A stretch of DNA of 58,894 bases from a virus: positions 1 to 58,894 of the IMG/VR virus record IMGVR_UViG_3300044799_000109; one strand, given 5' to 3'. Made by a program: the position numbers and the translations under genes. Each line of letters starts with the position of its first letter. Position 1 is the first letter of the stretch. Under the pieces are notes generated by a model. That model was not told the DNA's origin, made no database searches, and was given only the letters and a program-made list of their open reading frames with translations. Positions 5,632 to 52,542 of the stretch are shown here, piece by piece.

Positions 5632-5904
5632 ATGATGCGCTCGGATGTGGCCCTAGATCGCGTGCTGGATCGGACAGAAGGCGGCTGGCCTGTCTTCGAG
5701 TGTGTGAAGTGTAGCAAGCCACTCAGGCGGGCGACGGTGGTAGTTACCAAGCGGATCGCCTTCGATTAGGCGGCGGCGGCCTACCGGGAGACTGCCGAGT
5801 CGGGGCACATCCGGGTCTACTGTGGCCTGTGCGCGGCCTACCAGAACGAGGCCCTTGACCGACGAGTCGCCAGGGAACTGCTGGCGTACAAGGGCCTGGC
5901 GTGA
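5632..5904 (+). pseudogene. small zinc-ribbon protein interrupted by an amber codon
   Basis: From ATG 5632 the frame reads 45 codons to TAG (5767-5769), then stays open 44 more codons to TGA at 5904. The two parts form one zinc ribbon: CVKC lies before the TAG and CGLC after it. No start or ribosome binding site follows the TAG. A single change from GAG or CAG would explain it. TAG is a true stop for many genes here, so genome-wide reassignment is unlikely; a nonsense mutation, suppression or sequencing error remain. Confidence 0.55.
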
Positions 5905-21726: not shown

Positions 21727-24399
21727 ATGACGCGCGTTCACATCGTCGCGGCGGGGACCGAGCCCACTCAGAACCGCATCATCACGCGCTTGGCGCGGCT
21801 GCTCGCCGATGGTGCTGGCTGGACTATCGCCGCTCGGGTCGATACAGGAGCACGAGTCAACGTGTTCCTGCCGTACCTCAACAGGTTGAACGCCAGATGT
21901 GAGACGCGCTGTGTTGCCTGGTTCACTCACCGCGACGAGAGCCTGCCTGAGAAGGTGAAGGTGTGGAACAGGGTGGCTGCGGGCGTCACCCTGCGCGCGA
22001 CCAGCGCCCGGATCTACCTCGATGAGCTCTCACAACATGGCCCGACCACACTGATCACACCGCCACTCGACCGCGAGAAGTTCCGGCCGGGAGAGCGGGT
22101 TCGACGGGGCCGGCCTGTCGTCGGCACATCTGGCTTCGTGTATCCCTGGGGGCGCAAGGGCGAGAAACTGCTCGGGCAACTGGCTGAAAACGGGTTCGGT
22201 GATCGACTGGACTGGCGGGCGGCTGGCGAGGGTTGGCCTGTCCCGACGCAGTTGTATCACTGGCACCGGCTCGAGGAGTTCTACCAGTCGCTCGATCTCT
22301 ACGTCTGCACCAGCCTGATCGAGGGCGTCGGGTATGGTCCGCTCGAGGCCCTGGCGTGTGGCATCCCCATCGTCGTGCCCTCGCGGGTCGGCGTGTTCGA
22401 CGACCTCCAGGAGCAGCCGGGTGTGAGACACTACCGGGCAGGCAATCTGATTGATCTGGAACGCGCCCTCGCCCTCTGCCTGGAGGACCGGGCGGACCCA
22501 GAGGGGTTACGCGATCTGACCGCCGGCTACACAACGGACGCATGGGTCGGCGGCTGGCAGCAGGCTATTGACGAGATGATGGGCAGGGAGGCTGCGCCAA
22601 CTGCCCTGGAGCGTCCGGCCATTTCGGCGGTGGTCGGGACGTCCTCGGTGCCCGACCCGGGCCCGTTTCCTTCCTGGCGGGCCCGGGCGGGCCAATTGGT
22701 CGTTACCAGACCACAGGCCCGCATTCACATCGTCCTGCCTGAGTTCGAGCACGCAACCGCGATTCTGCCCCGGAAAGCCAGGGCACTACAGGCGGCGACG
22801 GGCTGGTCACTCTCGCAGGAGCCAGACGAGCACGCCCTGGTCAACTACTTCCTGCCCTACATGGCGCACCAGCCTTGCGGGACGCTGACGGCCGCCTACT
22901 TCACCCACCGCGAGGACGCGATGGGCTGGCCTGAGAAAGCTGAACGCTGGGATTACGTTGCCAGCCGGCTCGAGTTGCGGCTCACCAGCTCGCAGCACAA
23001 CCTGCCATACCTGGACCAGTTTGGCCCGACCCGGATCGTCCGCCCTCCGCTGGATCGGCAGAAGTTCTGTCTGCCGAAGATGAGGGCGAGCCACGCCCGA
23101 CCAGTGGTCGGTACCAGCGGGTTCGTCAGTCCCTGGGGGCGCAAGGGCGACGCTCTGTTGGGGCAACTCGTGGAGACGCCAACGGGCGAGACCTGCGAGT
23201 GGCGTGCATCGGGCATCGGTTGGCCGATGCCGACGGTAGATTACCCGTGGCACGAGATGGAGAAGTTCTATCAGGGACTCGACCTCTACGTCGCCACGTC
23301 GCTGATCGAGGGCACGGGTTATGGGCCGCTCGAAGCCCTCGCCTGCGGGCTGCCGGTGGTCGTCCCGCACGGAGTAGGCGTGTGGGATGACCTGGGAGAT
23401 ATGCCGGGCATCACCCGCTACGAGAAGGGCGACCTGGTAAGTCTGGAGGCGGCCCTCGCCGCGGCGCTGGACACTCGGAGCGAGGCTGAGCAGTTGCGGG
23501 CGCTGACGGAGCCCTACTCAGTGGAAGCCTGGGCGGAGGGACACAAGATGGCGATGGACGAGTTGCTGGAGGGGATGCACGCGCCCGCCCAGGATGACCT
23601 CCCCGATTGGCGCGGCCACTCCGGCCTCTACGTCGTGGCCTTCGGGGAGAGCGCCCGCAAGGTTGCGAAGCGGTGCATCGGCTCATTCAAGAAGCAGATG
23701 CCCGGCGTGCCCGTGCTACTCTGCTCGGACCGCCCACTCGGGCCGGAGGATACTCTGGTCGTCGAGAAGGATTCGGACATCGGGGCGCGCTCGCCGAAGG
23801 TCAGGATCTATGATCTCACCCCGCCGGAGTGGCGCTACGTCCTCTACCTCGACGCCGATACAGACGTGCTACAGCCTCTCGCCTCGCTCTTCCAGTGGCT
23901 GCAGGACGGTTGGGAACTGTGTATCTGCTCGAACCCCGGCCGCTTCGCCGTGGCCCAGCAGATGGGGCGGGCTGACAACACCGGGGAGTGCGAGCAGACG
24001 TTCGCACTCTGGGGCACCGACCAGATGCTGCAACTCGGCGGCGGTGTCTTCGCGTTCCGGCGCACGCCCGCCACTGAGCGACTCTTCCACGACTGGGCAA
24101 CCGAGTGGGACAGGTACGGCAAGCGCGACCAGGGAGCGCTGCTCAGGGCCATCTGGCACCAGCCGGTCAAGATGCTGCTGCTCTTGCCGAGGACGTGGAA
24201 CTGCGTCTGCCAGGCCGACGAGAAGAGGCCGGGCCAGTGGAAGTATCCCTACGACGACCCGTCGGGCGCGGCCATCATGCACTACCCGATGACGGCACGC
24301 AGGTGGAGCGGCATCATCCCGCAACGGTCGGACAGCCCAGAGGCATGGGTCAAGGTGCGCGAGTGGGAGCGGGCGCACGGACAGGGGGTGCGAGCGTGA
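21727..24399 (+). CDS. three-domain glycosyltransferase (GT4-like, GT4-like, GT8-like)
   Basis: 890 aa in one chain. Domain 1 (about 1-285) and domain 2 (about 335-620) are tandem copies of a GT-B enzyme: both carry GTSGFV-PWGRKG, SLDLYV/GLDLYV, TSLIEG-GYGPLEALACG and GV-DDL. A Pro-rich linker (about 295-325) joins them. Domain 3 (about 630-890) is GT-A/GT8-like with LYLDADTDV and LPRTWNC. Such a chain could build a short oligosaccharide stepwise without releasing it. It lies between methyltransferase genes, ATG start directly after the previous stop. Confidence 0.8.
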   Translation: MTRVHIVAAGTEPTQNRIITRLARLLADGAGWTIAARVDTGARVNVFLPYLNRLNARCETRCVAWFTHRDESLPEKVKVWNRVAAGVTLRATSARIYLDELSQHGPTTLITPPLDREKFRPGERVRRGRPVVGTSGFVYPWGRKGEKLLGQLAENGFGDRLDWRAAGEGWPVPTQLYHWHRLEEFYQSLDLYVCTSLIEGVGYGPLEALACGIPIVVPSRVGVFDDLQEQPGVRHYRAGNLIDLERALALCLEDRADPEGLRDLTAGYTTDAWVGGWQQAIDEMMGREAAPTALERPAISAVVGTSSVPDPGPFPSWRARAGQLVVTRPQARIHIVLPEFEHATAILPRKARALQAATGWSLSQEPDEHALVNYFLPYMAHQPCGTLTAAYFTHREDAMGWPEKAERWDYVASRLELRLTSSQHNLPYLDQFGPTRIVRPPLDRQKFCLPKMRASHARPVVGTSGFVSPWGRKGDALLGQLVETPTGETCEWRASGIGWPMPTVDYPWHEMEKFYQGLDLYVATSLIEGTGYGPLEALACGLPVVVPHGVGVWDDLGDMPGITRYEKGDLVSLEAALAAALDTRSEAEQLRALTEPYSVEAWAEGHKMAMDELLEGMHAPAQDDLPDWRGHSGLYVVAFGESARKVAKRCIGSFKKQMPGVPVLLCSDRPLGPEDTLVVEKDSDIGARSPKVRIYDLTPPEWRYVLYLDADTDVLQPLASLFQWLQDGWELCICSNPGRFAVAQQMGRADNTGECEQTFALWGTDQMLQLGGGVFAFRRTPATERLFHDWATEWDRYGKRDQGALLRAIWHQPVKMLLLLPRTWNCVCQADEKRPGQWKYPYDDPSGAAIMHYPMTARRWSGIIPQRSDSPEAWVKVREWERAHGQGVRA

Positions 24400-26361: not shown

Positions 26362-27239
26362 AGGCTCTCAAGGTTGCCCTCATCACGCGCCCTGGCAGCA
26401 TCCCCGGCGAGCGCAACGTCGGGGCCTGGGCGTATGCCGTGCCGGAGTTCACCTGGCGGCACTACGAGGTGCCGAAGGGCCATCACCTCAACCGGGTGCG
26501 GTTCACCGGCTTCGACCTGATCGTGTGGGAGGACGGGAAGTCGAGCATCACCTGGGAGGGCAAGGGGCCGCCCATCGCCTACGTTGTGGCCGACAGTACG
26601 TTGTCCGAGGAGCACTACCAGCAGCGCCTTCGGTTGGGCACTCAGGCCGACATCATCTTGGTGGACTGGGACCGGCTGGAGCGGTTCGAGCAGTTGGGCA
26701 AGCCGGTGCGGCGATTCTCTTACGCGGTAAATGATCGCCGCTTCAAGGACTGGGGAGAGGCGAAGACTATCGATGTCGCCTACCACCTTCATGAGAACAC
26801 GCCTGAGCGTAAGGAGCTAGGTGACTGGCTCGCCGGATTCTGCCAGGAACGTAGTTATGCCTTCGCCCGGGGAACGCGGCTCGGGGACGAGTACGCGAGG
26901 GCGTTCAGCCGAGCGAGGGTGACGGTGGACCTGCCCCGCAACCCGTTCAACCGCGACCACCGGCTCTTCGACGCGATGGGCTGCCGGACGTGGGTGCTGA
27001 CCCGCCCGGTGCCGGACGTGAGTGGAGAGCAGCGAGTCGTCGGCTACGACTATCAGGAGTGGGACAGTCTCGAAGTCCTGGCGACGAGGCTGGATAAGGT
27101 ACTGAGTCTCGACCCTGACTGGGAGAGGGGCTTACGCGACTCCTGGGATGCAGCTCTGGAGTGCGTTCAGACTTACCATACCTGGAAAGTGCGTGCCCGC
27201 GAGTTGCGGGCGACGCTGGCGGAGTTGGGCATTGGCTGA
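26358..27239 (+). CDS. CgeB-like glycosyltransferase
   Basis: 293 aa from GTG 26358. Pattern of GT-B CgeB/Glyco_trans_1_2 proteins: FDLIVWEDGK, GPPIAYVVADS, ADIILVDWDR, and the C-terminal SRARVTVDLPRNPFNRDHRLFDAMGCRTWVLT (given here in parts: NRDHRLFDAMGC is the donor-binding loop). It should add a sugar; acceptor unknown. The downstream radical SAM gene starts within its last codons. Confidence 0.6.
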   Translation: MKALKVALITRPGSIPGERNVGAWAYAVPEFTWRHYEVPKGHHLNRVRFTGFDLIVWEDGKSSITWEGKGPPIAYVVADSTLSEEHYQQRLRLGTQADIILVDWDRLERFEQLGKPVRRFSYAVNDRRFKDWGEAKTIDVAYHLHENTPERKELGDWLAGFCQERSYAFARGTRLGDEYARAFSRARVTVDLPRNPFNRDHRLFDAMGCRTWVLTRPVPDVSGEQRVVGYDYQEWDSLEVLATRLDKVLSLDPDWERGLRDSWDAALECVQTYHTWKVRARELRATLAELGIG

Positions 27240-28224
27240 GCGACTGATCGACCCCGCGAACAAGATACTGCGCTTCCCGGATGTGCTAGCGGCCATTCGG
27301 CGAGGTAAGCGCGTTTGGCCGCTCAACGTCGAGATGGACCTGACGAATCGCTGCAACGCCCGATGCCAGCACTGTGCCTTCGCCTACATGCGCGGCCAGG
27401 AAGTCCTGCCGACTACGCTCGCCGAGGACGTGCTGACTGAGATGAGGAACGGCGGCCTCCGGGCGGTCACGTTCACCGGGGGCGGCGAGCCAACCCTGCA
27501 TCCCGATTTCGCTAGACTGGCCTTCCACGCCGCCGGGCTGGGCCTCAAGGTCGGGGTGTACACGAACGGCCTCCGACCCGACCCGCTGACCGAGACCCTG
27601 TATGCCCTCACCTGGGTCTACCTGAGCCTGGATGCAGCCGACCCTGACTCTTACCGCGAGGTCAAGCGGGTGGACAGCTTCTGGCAGGTGCTGGACACCG
27701 CCCGCTGGCTACTCACCTATCGCGAAGGTGACACGCCCAAGGTCGGCCTGGGCTTCCTGCTCAGCGGCACGAACTGGCGAGAGGCGACGGTGGGCGCCGA
27801 TCTGGCAGGCAGCCTCGGTGTGGACTACTGCCAGTTCCGACCGATCGTCTCCGCTGACCCGGCGGCTGACTACTCGTGGATCCGGGAGGCGCTGCCGCTA
27901 CTCGACGCGCTGGTGAGTCCGCGAGTCTACGTCAGTCGAGCCAGATTCGTGGAACTGCTGGAGGGCCAGGCGCGGGGCTACTCCCTCTGCCGGGCATCGG
28001 AGTTGGTGCCCTGCGTCGGGGCAGATGGCACGCTCTGGGTCTGCCCGAACATGAGAGGCAAGCGGAGTCTTGGCAGCCTCGCCGAGGAGTCCTTCGCCAC
28101 CCTCTGGGCCAGGCGCGAGGCGCAGATGGTCGGGCGGGACTGCCGGGTGGCCTGTCGGGATCACGCGCTGAATGAGACTCTCGAGTACGTCTGTCAGGAG
28201 GGGCCACACGATGCTTTCGTCTGA
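27232..28224 (+). CDS. radical SAM protein with SPASM-like C-terminus
   Basis: 330 aa from TTG 27232 inside the previous gene. CNARCQHC is the CxxxCxxC cluster for the 4Fe-4S centre; TFTGGGEPTLHPDF is the GGE motif. The C-terminus has CRASELVPC, CPNMRG, CRVACRDH and a last Cys, which would bind an auxiliary cluster as in SPASM/twitch enzymes. These enzymes modify peptides or sugars. In this setting a sugar deoxygenation/epimerisation or a peptide modification are both possible. Confidence 0.85.
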   Translation: MAERLIDPANKILRFPDVLAAIRRGKRVWPLNVEMDLTNRCNARCQHCAFAYMRGQEVLPTTLAEDVLTEMRNGGLRAVTFTGGGEPTLHPDFARLAFHAAGLGLKVGVYTNGLRPDPLTETLYALTWVYLSLDAADPDSYREVKRVDSFWQVLDTARWLLTYREGDTPKVGLGFLLSGTNWREATVGADLAGSLGVDYCQFRPIVSADPAADYSWIREALPLLDALVSPRVYVSRARFVELLEGQARGYSLCRASELVPCVGADGTLWVCPNMRGKRSLGSLAEESFATLWARREAQMVGRDCRVACRDHALNETLEYVCQEGPHDAFV

Positions 28225-31128: not shown

Positions 31129-32679
31129 ATGGGGCTCTCGGGACTGAGCGGGCTCTCGGGACTGAGCGGGATAGCGGGCGGTGCAATCCCACCCGTCGTC
31201 TACGACACCTTCACTCGCGCCAACAGCAACACGACTCTCGGCAACGCCGAGACTGGACAGGCGTGGGTTGCATACGCTGGCGTCTGGGGCATCAGCGGCA
31301 ATCAGGCGTACACCGTGACCTCCGATGGTGACTGGCAGACGTTCGCAGGCATTGACTCAGGTCTATCGGACTGCCTGGTACAGGCTCGATTCCCGGACAT
31401 CAAGGATTCCTGTCGCTTGCGGGTACGGGCGACGGACAACGCCAATCACATCCTGCTCCAGGTCGAAGGGGACGGCACGCGGTTGTATACCCGCATCGCG
31501 GGCACGTTCGCCAACATCGGTTTCATCGAGGACAAGCCCGTCGATGGCGACACCGTAGGGTTGCTGCTCAAGGGCGGCTCTGTCACCATCCAGATCAACG
31601 GCATCAACAAGGGCACGTTCGAAAGCACGTTCAATCAGACGGCCACCATCCACGGCATCGGCGGCGGTGACAGCGGAGCTAACGCGACACTGATAGACGA
31701 TTTCAGGGTCCAGTGGCTGACTTCGCCGATGTGGGACTTCCGTGGGGTCAATCTGCACGGAATACATCGGGGCGATCTCGCGTCGGATGAGGTCTCTACG
31801 TGGTTGGACCTGATGCCGTCCTACGGGGTCAACTGGATCGCCATCAATACTCACTACTGGCAGACCAATAAGGACAGCACCACCATCTACGCCGATGCCA
31901 CGCACTCGCCGCTGGACGCCGAGATCACGGCCAGTATTGCCGATTGCAAGGCGCGTGGCTTCAAGGTCATGCTCAAGCCGCTACTTGACCTGGCGACTCC
32001 CAATCCCACGTCGGACTGGCGCGGTCTTATCGGGACGAACTTTACCGAACAGAACTGGACTGACTGGTTTGCGTCGTACAGCGCCTACATTCTGAACTAC
32101 GCGGCGCTCGCGCAGGCTGGCGGCGTGGATATGTTCTGCATCGGGACGGAACTCACCATACCGTCGTACCGAGAGGCACAGTGGCGAGTCCTGGTGGCTG
32201 CGATACGGCAGGTATACACGGGACCGCTGATCTTCGCTCATATGTTCGATTACTTCGCTGATTTCACCTGGTGGGACGCACTCGACTTCGTTGGGATAGA
32301 CGCCTACAACCCCTTGTCGGATCACGATAGCCCGACGCTTGCGGAGATATGGTCATGGTGGCCCGCGCAATACGCCACTATCAAGGCGGCGGTTATCCCT
32401 ACTGGGCGTCCATTGCTGCTGACTGAGTTCGGATACCCGAGCGCTGATCCAGCAGCGATCACGCCGTGGGTGGTTACCTTCCCGGAAGGTACGAACGTGA
32501 ACACGACGCTCCAGGCCAACCTCTATCAGGCGCTACTCGATCAATTCGCGGTGGATAGTTTTGTCTATGGCGGATTCGTTTGGAGCATCAGCAAGGAAGC
32601 GATCTTCGGGGGCGACGATTACGCGCACTGTCCGTTCGGCAAAGCGGCTGGAACGCTGTTACAGGCTCGGTGGACGTAG
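31129..32679 (+). CDS. virion glycosidase-like protein (collagen-like start, lectin-like and GH113-like barrel)
   Basis: 516 aa. It begins with four Gly-Leu-Ser triplets (18-base tandem repeat), then a concanavalin-like beta domain (about 22-200), then a TIM barrel from about 205: FRGVNLHGIH, FKVMLKPLLDL, FCIGTELT (likely acid/base Glu), DFVGIDAYNPL and LLLTEFGYPS (likely nucleophile Glu). This resembles GH113-type beta-mannanases. Probably a tail or capsid-bound enzyme that trims host surface polysaccharide. The family assignment is by motif only. Confidence 0.65.
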   Translation: MGLSGLSGLSGLSGIAGGAIPPVVYDTFTRANSNTTLGNAETGQAWVAYAGVWGISGNQAYTVTSDGDWQTFAGIDSGLSDCLVQARFPDIKDSCRLRVRATDNANHILLQVEGDGTRLYTRIAGTFANIGFIEDKPVDGDTVGLLLKGGSVTIQINGINKGTFESTFNQTATIHGIGGGDSGANATLIDDFRVQWLTSPMWDFRGVNLHGIHRGDLASDEVSTWLDLMPSYGVNWIAINTHYWQTNKDSTTIYADATHSPLDAEITASIADCKARGFKVMLKPLLDLATPNPTSDWRGLIGTNFTEQNWTDWFASYSAYILNYAALAQAGGVDMFCIGTELTIPSYREAQWRVLVAAIRQVYTGPLIFAHMFDYFADFTWWDALDFVGIDAYNPLSDHDSPTLAEIWSWWPAQYATIKAAVIPTGRPLLLTEFGYPSADPAAITPWVVTFPEGTNVNTTLQANLYQALLDQFAVDSFVYGGFVWSISKEAIFGGDDYAHCPFGKAAGTLLQARWT

Positions 32680-47518: not shown

Positions 47519-47547
47519 TTGACAGCGACCGCTCAGCCTGCGATAAT
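47519..47547 (+). promoter_or_regulatory. strong sigma70-type promoter
   Basis: TTGACA (47519-47524), exactly 17 bases, GATAAT (47542-47547). Transcription would start near 47554, at the head of a structured leader. Best-matching plus-strand promoter in the window. Confidence 0.85.
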
Positions 47548-47551
47548 GGTG

Positions 47552-47657
47552 TTGCTGAGGGTCGTCGGTCGTTTTGTTTTGTCGCAGGTAACAGCCCGGA
47601 TGTCTGGCCGAACGGCCGCGACCCTCAGCAAGTTGCGACCGGTCAGATGTCCGGGCT
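47552..47657 (+). ncRNA. structured leader with two interleaved stems
   Basis: Stem A: 47552-47564 pairs perfectly with 47619-47631 (13 pairs, TTGCTGAGGGTCG). Stem B: 47593-47610 pairs with 47640-47657 (18 pairs including three G-U). The order is A, B, A', B', so the stems either form a pseudoknot or exclude each other. B' is followed by TTTTG, so B/B' could end transcription and A/A' prevent it. A small hairpin TTGCC/GGCAA follows before the GGAGG of the next gene. Likely an attenuator or riboregulator of the gene at 47692. Confidence 0.65.
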
Positions 47658-47691
47658 TTTGCCTGTTCGGCAAGGCAAGGGAGGCCAGTCC

Positions 47692-48270
47692 ATGTACCAG
47701 GTCGGAGTCTCGATCAAGGGGACCGCTCCGCTCATGCAGCATCGATTCCCAATGCCGGATCTCGCCACGCAGGCGAAGGGCGGTCACAAGTCGGCGGGTG
47801 CCAAGGACTACACCCAGGAATGGCGAGACTACTTCTACGCCACGGCCGAGGGTGACATCTTCCAACCCGCTGCCCACATCGAGGGCGCGCTCATCAAGGC
47901 GGCCGTCAACTTCAAGGTCAGTGGCAAGCGCGGCAAGACGTACAAGGATCTCATCAGCGCCAACGTGTTCATCGACCCCGATCGGATTCTCCACGGTATC
48001 AAGGTGCCCGAGGAACTGGATACCGATGCCGACAAGCCGCTCTATCTCGACATGCGCCCTGTCGTGGTCCAGCGGTCCCGCGTGGTCAGGATCAGGCCGG
48101 CGTTCTGTCCGGGCTGGGTACTCGGCTTCGATATCCAGGTAATCGAGGACGAGATTAGCGCGGACATTCTCCAGGACATCCTGACGCTGGCAGGCAAGAC
48201 GGTAGGCATCGGGGACTATCGCCCACGGTTCGGACGGTTCAGCGTAGCGCGGTTCGAGGTCGCAAAGTAG
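47692..48270 (+). CDS. conserved-looking phage protein, 192 aa
   Basis: ATG behind GGGAGGCCAGTCC. Beta-rich with IKGTAPLMQHRFP, then HIEGALIKAAVNFKVSGKRGK, and an end with GKTVGIGDYRPRFGRFSV. I have a sense of having seen the last motif in phage early proteins but cannot name the family. It lies between the structured leader and the pentamer tract, so either could regulate it. Confidence 0.65.
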   Translation: MYQVGVSIKGTAPLMQHRFPMPDLATQAKGGHKSAGAKDYTQEWRDYFYATAEGDIFQPAAHIEGALIKAAVNFKVSGKRGKTYKDLISANVFIDPDRILHGIKVPEELDTDADKPLYLDMRPVVVQRSRVVRIRPAFCPGWVLGFDIQVIEDEISADILQDILTLAGKTVGIGDYRPRFGRFSVARFEVAK

Positions 48271-48600
48271 TCTTTGTGGCAGGGGTGTGGTCTGGTAGTG
48301 CGCGGTAGAGTGTGGCCTGGTGCGAAGAGGCTGGGTCAGGTGGGGCGAGGTAAGGCAAGGCCCTCTCTTTGTGGCGAGGGTGCGGCCTGGCGTGATCAGG
48401 CTTGGCGCGGCGCGGTGAGGCGTGGCAGAGTGCGGCAATGCGTGGCGGGGTGTGGCTGGGTCTGGTCTGGCAAGCCAAGGCACTCGACTTGTGGTGAGGG
48501 TGAGGTCGGATCGGATAAGTTCCGGTCGGGCGAGGCGAGGAGCGGCGGGGCTGGGCCTGGTATGGCGATGACAGGCGCGAACTGGTAGGGTAGGGCATGG
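48271..48600. repeat. YNNGG pentamer-phased tract (three blocks)
   Basis: The whole gap from the TAG at 48270 to the next ATG is built of pentamers in one phase: cut at multiples of five, 46 of 66 units end in GG and most begin with C or T. Three blocks start at 48271, 48366 and 48486 (95 and 120 apart, both multiples of five), each opening with a variant of TCTTT-GTGGC-GAGGG-TGCGG. The plus strand is about half G. No gene, terminator or inverted repeat explains it. See findings. Confidence 0.9.
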
Positions 48601-48923
48601 TCGCCTTCACAGTTGACGGTCTTCCGGGGTTGCGATTCCCCTGGTACGGTCGGATACCGCTGCCCCTCTGGCTCCCGCTGAAACAGTGGGTCTACCAGAG
48701 GGACGGCGGGTTCTGCGCCTACTGCGGCAACACGACTGAGTACACGGATAGCCACTGTCATCATGCCCTTGAACTGAGTGAGGGTGGCACCAATCATGCC
48801 AGTAACCTCAAGACGCTCTGCCGGGATTGCCACAAGTCCCGGCATCCGTTCATGAGAACTGCGAGAGAAAGGTTACACTCCGGCGCTTCCGCCAACATCC
48901 TGAAGGCCAAGGTCGGGGCGTGA
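48597..48923 (+). CDS. HNH nuclease
   Basis: 108 aa; ATG within the last pentamers, with TAGGGTAGGG upstream. Classical HNH: WVYQRDGGFCAYCGN, CHHALELSEGGTNHASNL, TLCRDCHKSRHP; two Cys pairs hold zinc. On the plus strand in a phage operon, so it could be a packaging or recombination nuclease and not a mobile gene. Confidence 0.85.
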   Translation: MVAFTVDGLPGLRFPWYGRIPLPLWLPLKQWVYQRDGGFCAYCGNTTEYTDSHCHHALELSEGGTNHASNLKTLCRDCHKSRHPFMRTARERLHSGASANILKAKVGA

Positions 48924-49920: not shown

Positions 49921-50105
49921 CCAATCAGGAGACGCAGGGCTTCACGAAGCAACTCAATGCCCGCCTCGACTCGGAGGCGTGGCGCAACCTGCGGGCAATT
50001 GCCGGGGTGACTGGAGAGGACTACTCGAAGATTCTCCGCCGGCTGCTCCGCGAGGAGTATGGCCGTGTGGTAGTTGGGAGGCCATCCGATGAAGTATCCC
50101 GGTAG
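49917..50105 (+). CDS. ribbon-helix-helix-like small protein, 62 aa
   Basis: ATG behind GGGAGGGTAACG. FTKQLNARLDSEAWRNLRAIA followed by EDYSKILRRLLREEY is the strand-helix-helix layout of Arc/MetJ-type repressors. It is a candidate to bind the palindromes upstream, though this is only proximity. Confidence 0.55.
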   Translation: MTNQETQGFTKQLNARLDSEAWRNLRAIAGVTGEDYSKILRRLLREEYGRVVVGRPSDEVSR

Positions 50106-50601
50106 GATAATTACTGATACTTTCCACGGCCTTCAGGATCCGCTCTTCGCGCCCATGAGCATAGCGGATCGGTGGCAGCATCTCCGTCGCCGACTCTGGG
50201 AGAGGGACGGCGGCTTGTGTGGAATCTGCGGCCAGCCGGTTGACCTCGGACCCAAGATGCACCTAGACCACATCGTACAGGTGGGCGAGGGCGGCTCGGA
50301 TGACTGGCAGAATCTCAGAATTACCCACGCCAAGTGCAATCAGAGCCGGCCGCGCACACAGTTGGGCGAGGTCAAGCGAGCCCAGAAGCCGTATGTTCCG
50401 ACCCGACCACCCAAAACCGTCAACAAACTGGTCCGCCTTCTCCCGGAGGAGGCGGAGACTCTGCATCGGGCTGCGGAGTTGGCCGGCTTGTCCGACACTC
50501 AGATGCTCCGCTTGCTGGCACGGCAGGCCATGCTTCTGACCTTCAACGTCACGCCGATCCTCGACGCGCTGGAAGCGGCGAAGAGGGAGTCAGCAACGTG
50601 A
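50089..50601 (+). CDS. HNH nuclease with C-terminal helical domain
   Basis: 170 aa from ATG 50089 with GGGAGG upstream. RRRLWERDGGLCGICGQPV, HLDHIVQVGEGGSDDWQNLR and THAKCNQSR make a complete HNH core. The C-part (about 115-170) has LVRLLPEEAETLHRAAELAG, a helical region that may dimerise. Plus-strand and in operon; role in DNA processing or packaging possible. Confidence 0.8.
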   Translation: MKYPGRIITDTFHGLQDPLFAPMSIADRWQHLRRRLWERDGGLCGICGQPVDLGPKMHLDHIVQVGEGGSDDWQNLRITHAKCNQSRPRTQLGEVKRAQKPYVPTRPPKTVNKLVRLLPEEAETLHRAAELAGLSDTQMLRLLARQAMLLTFNVTPILDALEAAKRESAT

Positions 50602-50958: not shown

Positions 50959-52407
50959 TCAGCCCTCGCCGAGCAGGGTCTCTACTCCCGGCCGCCAACT
51001 GATCGTGACCCGTCTCTCCGGGCCAACTGTCACCCGCTCGACGAGGCCGGCGACCGTCTCTCGCAGCGCCCCAGCGTCAAACTCGCCAGCTGCAAGCATC
51101 TCGGCCGCCCTGCGAATCCACGCGACGTGACCGGCGAGATCGGGCTCGGCGCTCTCGGCTTTGAGTGCCCGGAGGGTGGCCTGAGCGTCGGCGATCTGGC
51201 GACGGGTGGCACCAGCCCTCTCCGCGAACTGCGCTCGGGTGGTCTCGCCGTTCTCGCGCATCTCGATCTGCCGCGATTCGACCGCTCGGAGCCTGACGAC
51301 CTCAGCCTCTAACCCCACTACCTGCAGAGTTGTGTCACTATCTTCAGAGCGCTCCCGGGCTAATCGCTCCGCACTCGCGGCGATCTCGTCTGCCGAGGGC
51401 AGCCGTAGCCCGGCGAGTGCCCGGCGAAACTCCCGCTCGAGGGCCAGGTCGGAGATGCCACGAGCCTGGCAGCGGCGGTCGTAGCGCAGTCTGCAACCCC
51501 AGACGCCGTACTGGCGCACGGTCCCGCCGCGAGAGAATGTGTGGACCATCTTGGTGCCGCACTCACCGCAGACCAGGAGTCCAGCGCCCAGGAGATCGGG
51601 CCGCTCGGCTGGCGTGACGGCGTTGTGCCGACGGTCGCACAGTCTCGCCTGGACGCGGTCCCACAACTCCCGATTCACCCTCGCCGGGTGGTTGTCGCGG
51701 ATCGTGACGCCGTGAGCGACCAGGTCGCCCGCGTAGATCGGGTTGGTGAGGATGGTCCAGACCGTGTTCTTGCGCCAGGCGATGCCGGTGGGCGAGGGGC
51801 AGCCCTCGGCTCGCAGGCGCTCGGCCACGCCCAGGACAGAGAGGCGGTCAGGACCAGCGGGATCGTAGAGGGCGAAGGCGCGGTCCACACCGCGGCACCG
51901 GGGCGACGGGTCGGGCTCTGGCTTGCCGGTGGCGGAGTAGCGGTAGCCGAGCGGGATGGAGCCTGACCACTTGCCCTCGGCTGCTCGGGCGGCGAGGGCT
52001 GGGCGGACTCGCGCTGCTATCCTCTCGCTCTCCTTGCCGGCGAATCCGGCGCGGATCAGGAGCATCAACTCCTCTGCGACATCCTCGTCTGAGCACTCGA
52101 CCTTGACGCCCTGGTCCTGGAGCTCCCAGATGCGGGAGAGGATTTCGCGGGGGCGGCGGCCGAACCTATCGAGCCAGCGGACCAGGACGACGTCGGCCTC
52201 GCGGGCGCGGAGGCGGGTGAGCATGGCCTGGTAGGCGGGCCGGTCGTCGCGGCGGCCGGACTCGACATCGGAGAGGACGGCGAGCACATCGTATCCACGC
52301 TCGGCGGCGTAGGCGCGCAGCCGGCGCTCCTGCTCGGGGAGGCTGTAGCGATCGGCGGCGGCCTGCTCGTGGGAACTGACCCGAACATAGAGGAGAGCCC
52401 GAGTCAC
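50959..52407 (-). CDS. large serine integrase
   Basis: 482 aa from GTG 52407, start chosen because RALLYVRVSSHEQ is the catalytic N-terminus (Ser in VSS). Resolvase domain (1-150) with RWLDRFGR; recombinase domain with GIAWRKNTVWTILTNPIYAG; zinc ribbon with CGECGTKM and two later Cys; coiled coil and C-terminal end. It joins attP and attB for lysogeny. I could not place attP. Confidence 0.92.
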   Translation of the reverse strand: MTRALLYVRVSSHEQAAADRYSLPEQERRLRAYAAERGYDVLAVLSDVESGRRDDRPAYQAMLTRLRAREADVVLVRWLDRFGRRPREILSRIWELQDQGVKVECSDEDVAEELMLLIRAGFAGKESERIAARVRPALAARAAEGKWSGSIPLGYRYSATGKPEPDPSPRCRGVDRAFALYDPAGPDRLSVLGVAERLRAEGCPSPTGIAWRKNTVWTILTNPIYAGDLVAHGVTIRDNHPARVNRELWDRVQARLCDRRHNAVTPAERPDLLGAGLLVCGECGTKMVHTFSRGGTVRQYGVWGCRLRYDRRCQARGISDLALEREFRRALAGLRLPSADEIAASAERLARERSEDSDTTLQVVGLEAEVVRLRAVESRQIEMRENGETTRAQFAERAGATRRQIADAQATLRALKAESAEPDLAGHVAWIRRAAEMLAAGEFDAGALRETVAGLVERVTVGPERRVTISWRPGVETLLGEG

Positions 52408-52529
52408 CGGCCGGTGATCGTGGCGTAGAGGTACTGAGTAGCGTCTCGCACTAGCGTCGGGAAGGTGAATACGGTAACGAGGGCGAGTGTGACCGCCCAG
52501 GCGCAACCGATGGCGATCCTCTTGGCCAC
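52404..52529 (-). CDS. membrane protein coupled to the integrase, 41 aa
   Basis: GTG 52529 behind GGAGGTGTACT on the minus strand. AKRIAIGCAWAVTLALVTVF forms one membrane span. Its stop overlaps the integrase start (GTGA), so both are co-translated. Made in lysogens if the operon runs from the repressor; superinfection exclusion is a possible role. Confidence 0.65.
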   Translation of the reverse strand: MAKRIAIGCAWAVTLALVTVFTFPTLVRDATQYLYATITGR

Positions 52530-52542
52530 AGTACACCTCCCT

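Follow-up and report, generated by a model that had tools for sequence, protein, structure and literature searches.

The closest described relative of the locus studied here is VIPR, a phage system recently reported in a preprint (bioRxiv 2026.04.26.720920, PMC13142463). That preprint describes an ancestral phage-encoded RAMP protein, Vipr, acting with vrRNAs of 9-16 YNNGG repeats, in which GGY is conserved and the NN pair is hypervariable. Recognition of double-stranded DNA falls to the NN pairs, which skip one base and set the specificity, and the repeats of a vrRNA are followed by an invariable structured 3' tail; array types are reported to vary (PMC13142463). The targets reported there are competing phages and satellites, transcriptional repression was shown in E. 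coli, some VIPR types are mentioned with nucleases, the vap genes are numbered vap1-6, and VIPR is proposed as an ancestor of CRISPR (PMC13142463). In Escherichia phage SUSP1 (KT454805), source of the published system, we found YNNGG runs flanking vipr on both sides. We describe below a locus of the same kind in the window, that is, the whole 58,894-nt stretch of viral DNA that was analysed. VIPR is thus already described; what is distinctive here are an HNH partner and the 5' leader of the array units.

We looked at the pentamer tract that follows the gene at 47692-48270. Cut from 48271, its 330 bases gave 66 pentamers, 46 of which end in GG in a single phase, the count put forward in the original prediction. 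In 2000 dinucleotide-preserving shuffles, the mean number of in-phase GG pentamers was 17.0 (sd 1.6) and the maximum was 25. A pyrimidine start had been announced for about five in six GG units, and C or T was indeed found at position 1 in 39 of the 46 (85%), with positions 2 and 3 mixed. When the whole window was scanned, no comparable pentamer periodicity was detected elsewhere: every one of the 60 top-ranked 100-base segments of the + strand was located in the tract or at its edge (16 of 20 units for the best), and the best 100-base segment of the - strand reached only 8 of 20 GG units. All six exact matches to YNNGGx5 in the window fall inside the tract. The phase was said never to slip. 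The frame is kept throughout, but 20 of the 66 units depart from NNNGG, and the GG within the GTGGC or GTGGT that opens each block is one base out of phase, so that a block starts with a six-base step followed by five-base steps. Similarly, the motif said to open three blocks is present in substance, although its letters differ from block to block: TCTTT-GTGGC-AGGGG at 48271, TCTTT-GTGGC-GAGGG at 48366, and GACTT-GTGGT-GAGGG at 48486. The tract runs into the next start codon, as had been noticed, since its final pentamer, CATGG, contains the ATG of the HNH gene at 48597.

Next to the tract lies vipr (47692-48270, + strand), which encodes a 192-aa protein of the phrog_4652 family, a RAMP of Cas7-like type. 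The window protein is 28% identical over its length to SUSP1 Vipr (E = 1e-18), and the family profile matched the PDB entry 36pp ('SUSP1 Vipr protein') with E = 4e-43. An AlphaFold2 model of the window protein was obtained with a mean pLDDT of 91.7, and in structure comparison it matched Cas7-type subunits from both type VII and Csm complexes, with a best E of 6e-8. Conservation within the family is among the highest in a G-rich stretch near the C-terminus, GIGDYRPRFGRF in the window protein. Judged by homology, the 47692-48270 product is Vipr, a minimal RAMP. No close relative of it was found in genome contigs, and no near DNA match to the window was found among 50,697 phages.

To see the tract as a class, we scanned viral contigs for the DNA pattern (GGNNN)x9, a search suggested in the original prediction. 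The tract turned out not to be unique: at least 120 stretches were found, and 120 loci were analysed. Many of these listed loci hold tracts far longer than that of the window, the longest reaching 134 of 141 GG units; their units are mostly diverse, and the position-1 pyrimidine is mostly at 85-100%. An earlier worry that the tract could be an assembly artefact was settled by the recurrence of the same arrangement in many independent contigs. Homologues of the 47692-48270 protein were collected by iterated profile searches starting from the window protein. One of them is encoded in 73 of the 120 listed loci, which had been picked by DNA pattern alone. In control loci taken from unrelated patterns (1.42 Mb), neither a Vipr homologue (0/164) nor such a tract (0/164) was present. 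Tract and vipr share a strand in 73 of the 75 loci having both, window included, and in 51 of these 75 the tract lies at 50 nt or less from the vipr reading frame; among the linked loci, tracts occur 5' as well as 3' of vipr. Conversely, when loci were fetched by protein, GG-pentamer runs adjoined vipr in 10 of 11. These linkage counts, obtained in both search directions, indicate that the pentamer tract and the 47692-48270 protein form one module.

The linkage bears on two structural readings that had been proposed for the tract, namely that the G-rich strand folds into two-tier G-quadruplexes, or that the C-rich strand offers leftward transcripts a rho-loading site. A GG every five bases does fit (G2N3)n quadruplexes, and the opposite strand is C-rich; but neither structure calls for a position-1 pyrimidine, for a YUUGWGGY leader fixed on each block, or for a same-strand link to one protein family, and the variability of NN is left unexplained as well. 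We give these readings almost no weight as explanations of the tract, although the G-rich strand might form G-quadruplexes in vitro.

RNA bound by TRAP carries (G/U)AG repeats with a period of about five bases. From this likeness, it had been suggested that the tract RNA wraps an oligomeric protein, perhaps the 47692 product. The idea of a protein-bound RNA holds in part, as the product is a Vipr-type RAMP and YNNGG RNAs are reported to co-purify with Vipr in the SUSP1 system (PMC13142463). The TRAP comparison itself does not hold: the predicted fold is of the Cas7 type, no TRAP family match was found among the proteins neighbouring the tract, and NN is guide information in the published system, not a spacer. 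A regulatory reading of this kind would make the pentamers sites on the leader of the HNH mRNA, at which a protein oligomer would regulate translation or termination of HNH, with the NN as mere spacers. The TRAP-like period, the tract reaching the HNH start codon, and an upstream protein that would be an RNA-binding RAMP by its predicted fold speak for it. However, most linked loci have no HNH gene 3' of the tract, tracts also occur 5' of vipr, the published vrRNAs are guides with specificity from NN, and the NN pairs resemble codon positions 1-2 (see below). We therefore regard this reading as very improbable; autoregulation of HNH by the tract could be a side effect.

Altogether, the homology to Vipr, the predicted Cas7-type fold, and the YNNGG tract beside the gene indicate that the locus is a VIPR system. 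We are highly confident that it belongs to a tailed, probably temperate phage and comprises Vipr and an array of three vrRNAs, likely repressing genes of competitors. By analogy with the published SUSP1 system, from which transcription, RNP assembly, one-base-skip reading, and an anti-competitor role are inferred, the tract at 48272-48600 would give rise to three vrRNAs, each with a YUUGUGGY leader followed by 15-20 GGY/NN pentamers. Vipr subunits would line up along the vrRNA, the protein holding the GGY triplets, and each NN pair would recognise bases of double-stranded DNA, one base being passed over between successive pairs. Bound complexes would then, most likely, block transcription of genes of competing phages or satellites. 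In short, the virus probably uses the array to switch off the genes of rival viruses. Several central claims of the VIPR report, namely the linkage between tract and RAMP, the predicted Cas7-type fold, and the resemblance of NN to codon positions 1-2, were recovered independently on metagenomic viral contigs, starting from a locus noticed in the bare sequence.

We then delimited the elements of the locus, all on the + strand. The promoter placed upstream in the original prediction corresponds to a promoter-like site at 47519-47547 (TTGACA, a 17-base spacer, GATAAT, and TG before the -10), in which 11 of 12 bases agree with the consensus; it is a consensus match only. The leader between this site and vipr (47548-47691) contains several inverted segments and no Rfam family above threshold; over leader and array together, Rfam gave only sub-threshold matches of chance level. 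Unit 1 (48272-48365) starts with the 5' leader CUUUGUGGC followed by 15 pentamers (48286-48360), and its NN code is GT CT AG GC AG GT CT GC GA TG CA GG GA AA AA. Unit 2 (48367-48485) has the same leader, CUUUGUGGC, and 20 pentamers (48381-48480), with the NN code GC CT GT CA TT GC GC GA GT AG GC AA GT GG GT TG CT CT AA AA. Unit 3 (48487-48600) has the leader ACUUGUGGU and 20 pentamers (48501-48600) reaching into the HNH start codon, with the NN code GA CG CG AA CC CG GA GA GC GG TG CT AT GA CA GC CT AG AG AT. The units thus hold 15, 20, and 20 pentamers, compared with the 9-16 published, their ends being predicted from sequence. Each opens with YUUGUGGY, and it is this 5' end (YUUGWGGY) that is the conserved element, the 3' ends sharing only short similarity; an invariant structured 3' tail of the SUSP1 type was not recognised in the window units. 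Where units 1 and 2 meet (48360-48381), GCCCUC and GAGGGU could pair as a hairpin; this hairpin scored no better than shuffles (z 0.63) and was not seen in the relatives.

To look at the content of the guides, NN pairs were compared with the codon positions of phage genes, using 212 guides from 104 loci (2424 pairs). The log-likelihood was -6671 for positions 1-2, -6789 for positions 2-3, and -7114 for positions 3-1, positions 1-2 being ahead by 118 and 443 log units, respectively. Such a resemblance is expected if the one-base skip falls on the wobble base. It lends only moderate support, since a simple fitted base-composition model explains the NN pairs equally well. Targets were searched in viral contigs with an 8-unit one-base-skip pattern for each of the three guides, and the remaining units matched at chance level only. 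The same was observed with two further guide segments, for which, among the matches listed, the remaining units were at chance level only, and with a nine-unit pattern of guide 2 searched in 84,980 bacterial and archaeal genomes, one per species. Finally, when the 212 guides were compared all-against-all with the fetched loci, allowing skips of 0-3, the only matches above those of shuffled guides came from arrays paired with their own near-copies and from loci that had been fetched with the same pattern.

The gene that starts in the last pentamer (48597-48923, + strand) encodes an HNH endonuclease, a candidate vipr-accessory protein (vap). The window belongs to a clade of six members with L007/L170, L008/L174, L171, L172, and L173, whose Viprs are 63-70% identical to that of the window. 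The gene order vipr-array-HNH is kept in all six; three relatives carry an additional unit after HNH, and L173 carries one before vipr. Nearly all units of the clade open with TTTGWGGY, from which the following GG is reached by a six-base step. The six HNH-linked Viprs form a single clade with a support of 100/100, apart from the SUSP1 clade, and an HNH neighbour was gained separately in the distant locus L025. The commonest other neighbour of vipr belongs to an unnamed family of 150-187 aa; its gene lies downstream of vipr in 11 loci, and the product may be an accessory protein (L024, L026, L029, L042, L051, L061, L064, L088, L090, L092, and L107). In the window, a second HNH gene (50074-50601, + strand) was seen 1.8 kb downstream of vipr; its product is 29% identical to the 48597 HNH, and it adjoins no YNNGG tract. 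In L171, a low-complexity run at 5712-5771, in which GGCAA is repeated many times, is unlike a normal guide and could represent a unit that has degenerated or expanded.

The clade also informs on whether the window array could be a decayed one, of VIPR origin, with imperfect units and guiding lost. The 20 imperfect units of 66 are more than in many other loci, and the searches made with the guides found no target. But vipr is intact and conserved in the window, leaders and synteny are intact in the clade, and visual inspection showed imperfect units in every one of the six members, which suggests a consensus relaxed throughout the clade and not decay. A decayed array is thus improbable, and the reading of a VIPR array with relaxed units is preferred. 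The HNH gene holds its position throughout the clade, which suggests that the lineage may cleave whatever it binds: the nuclease downstream may add cleavage, a role that is speculative. A tentative proposal, which we consider possible but rather doubtful, is that Vipr-vrRNA complexes of the HNH-coupled lineage recruit the small HNH, so that in a temperate phage the DNA of rival phages would be cleaved and not merely repressed, and that vrRNAs are here defined by a 5' YUUGWGGY handle and a six-base first step, with no 3' tail. A compact RNA-guided nuclease pair may well be found in the HNH-array clade, which is a good candidate for one.

Concerning the phage itself, genes for terminase, portal, capsid, protease, tape measure, and recombinase are present in the same record. 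The recombinase is a large serine recombinase (50959-52536, - strand) with Resolvase, Recombinase, and zinc ribbon domains, which indicates that the phage is probably temperate. Unusual cargo was found among the structural genes: an 890-aa protein (21727-24399, + strand) that carries two glycosyltransferase group 1 stretches and matched none of 50,697 phage records and, near it, a radical SAM/SPASM protein (27148-28224) and a GH113 glycoside hydrolase (31129-32679). A tandem CCCGGAT repeat of about 8 copies lies at 1102-1157. In other loci, the VIPR arrays of L012 (640-1984) and L124 (31-1105) consist of blocks of 11-17 pentamers with near-identical spacers, about 40-50 nt long, between them. 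An evident hairpin (GGCGGCTAAAAACCGCC) was seen in the L012 spacers; the spacers of both arrays had no Rfam match, and no known ribozyme was found in 16 related loci.

Compared with TRAP, with which it shares the period of about five bases in the RNA, the locus differs in that its protein is unrelated and its repeats include hypervariable positions, are set in many blocks, and have no tie to trp genes. The likeness to the SUSP1 VIPR is much broader: in both, a RAMP of about 190 aa (28% identity) is directly adjoined on the same strand by YNNGG tracts, with several guide units downstream and one small accessory gene, a candidate one in the window. It differs from SUSP1 in that its Vipr falls in a separate, well-supported clade, the neighbour is an HNH endonuclease with the array lying between vipr and HNH, and the units are longer and less perfect, starting with YUUGUGGY and a six-base first step; a SUSP1-like 3' tail was not recognised in them. 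A class 1 CRISPR-Cas locus was considered and rejected, as identical repeats are absent and the lone RAMP gene is flanked by an amidase (endolysin) and HNH. The window protein is nonetheless related in its predicted fold to the Cas7-type RAMP subunits that line up along a guide RNA in types III-A and VII. While those systems rely on CRISPR repeats and spacers, the window has none and a single RAMP gene, and its guide information would be carried by dinucleotides at five-base spacing.
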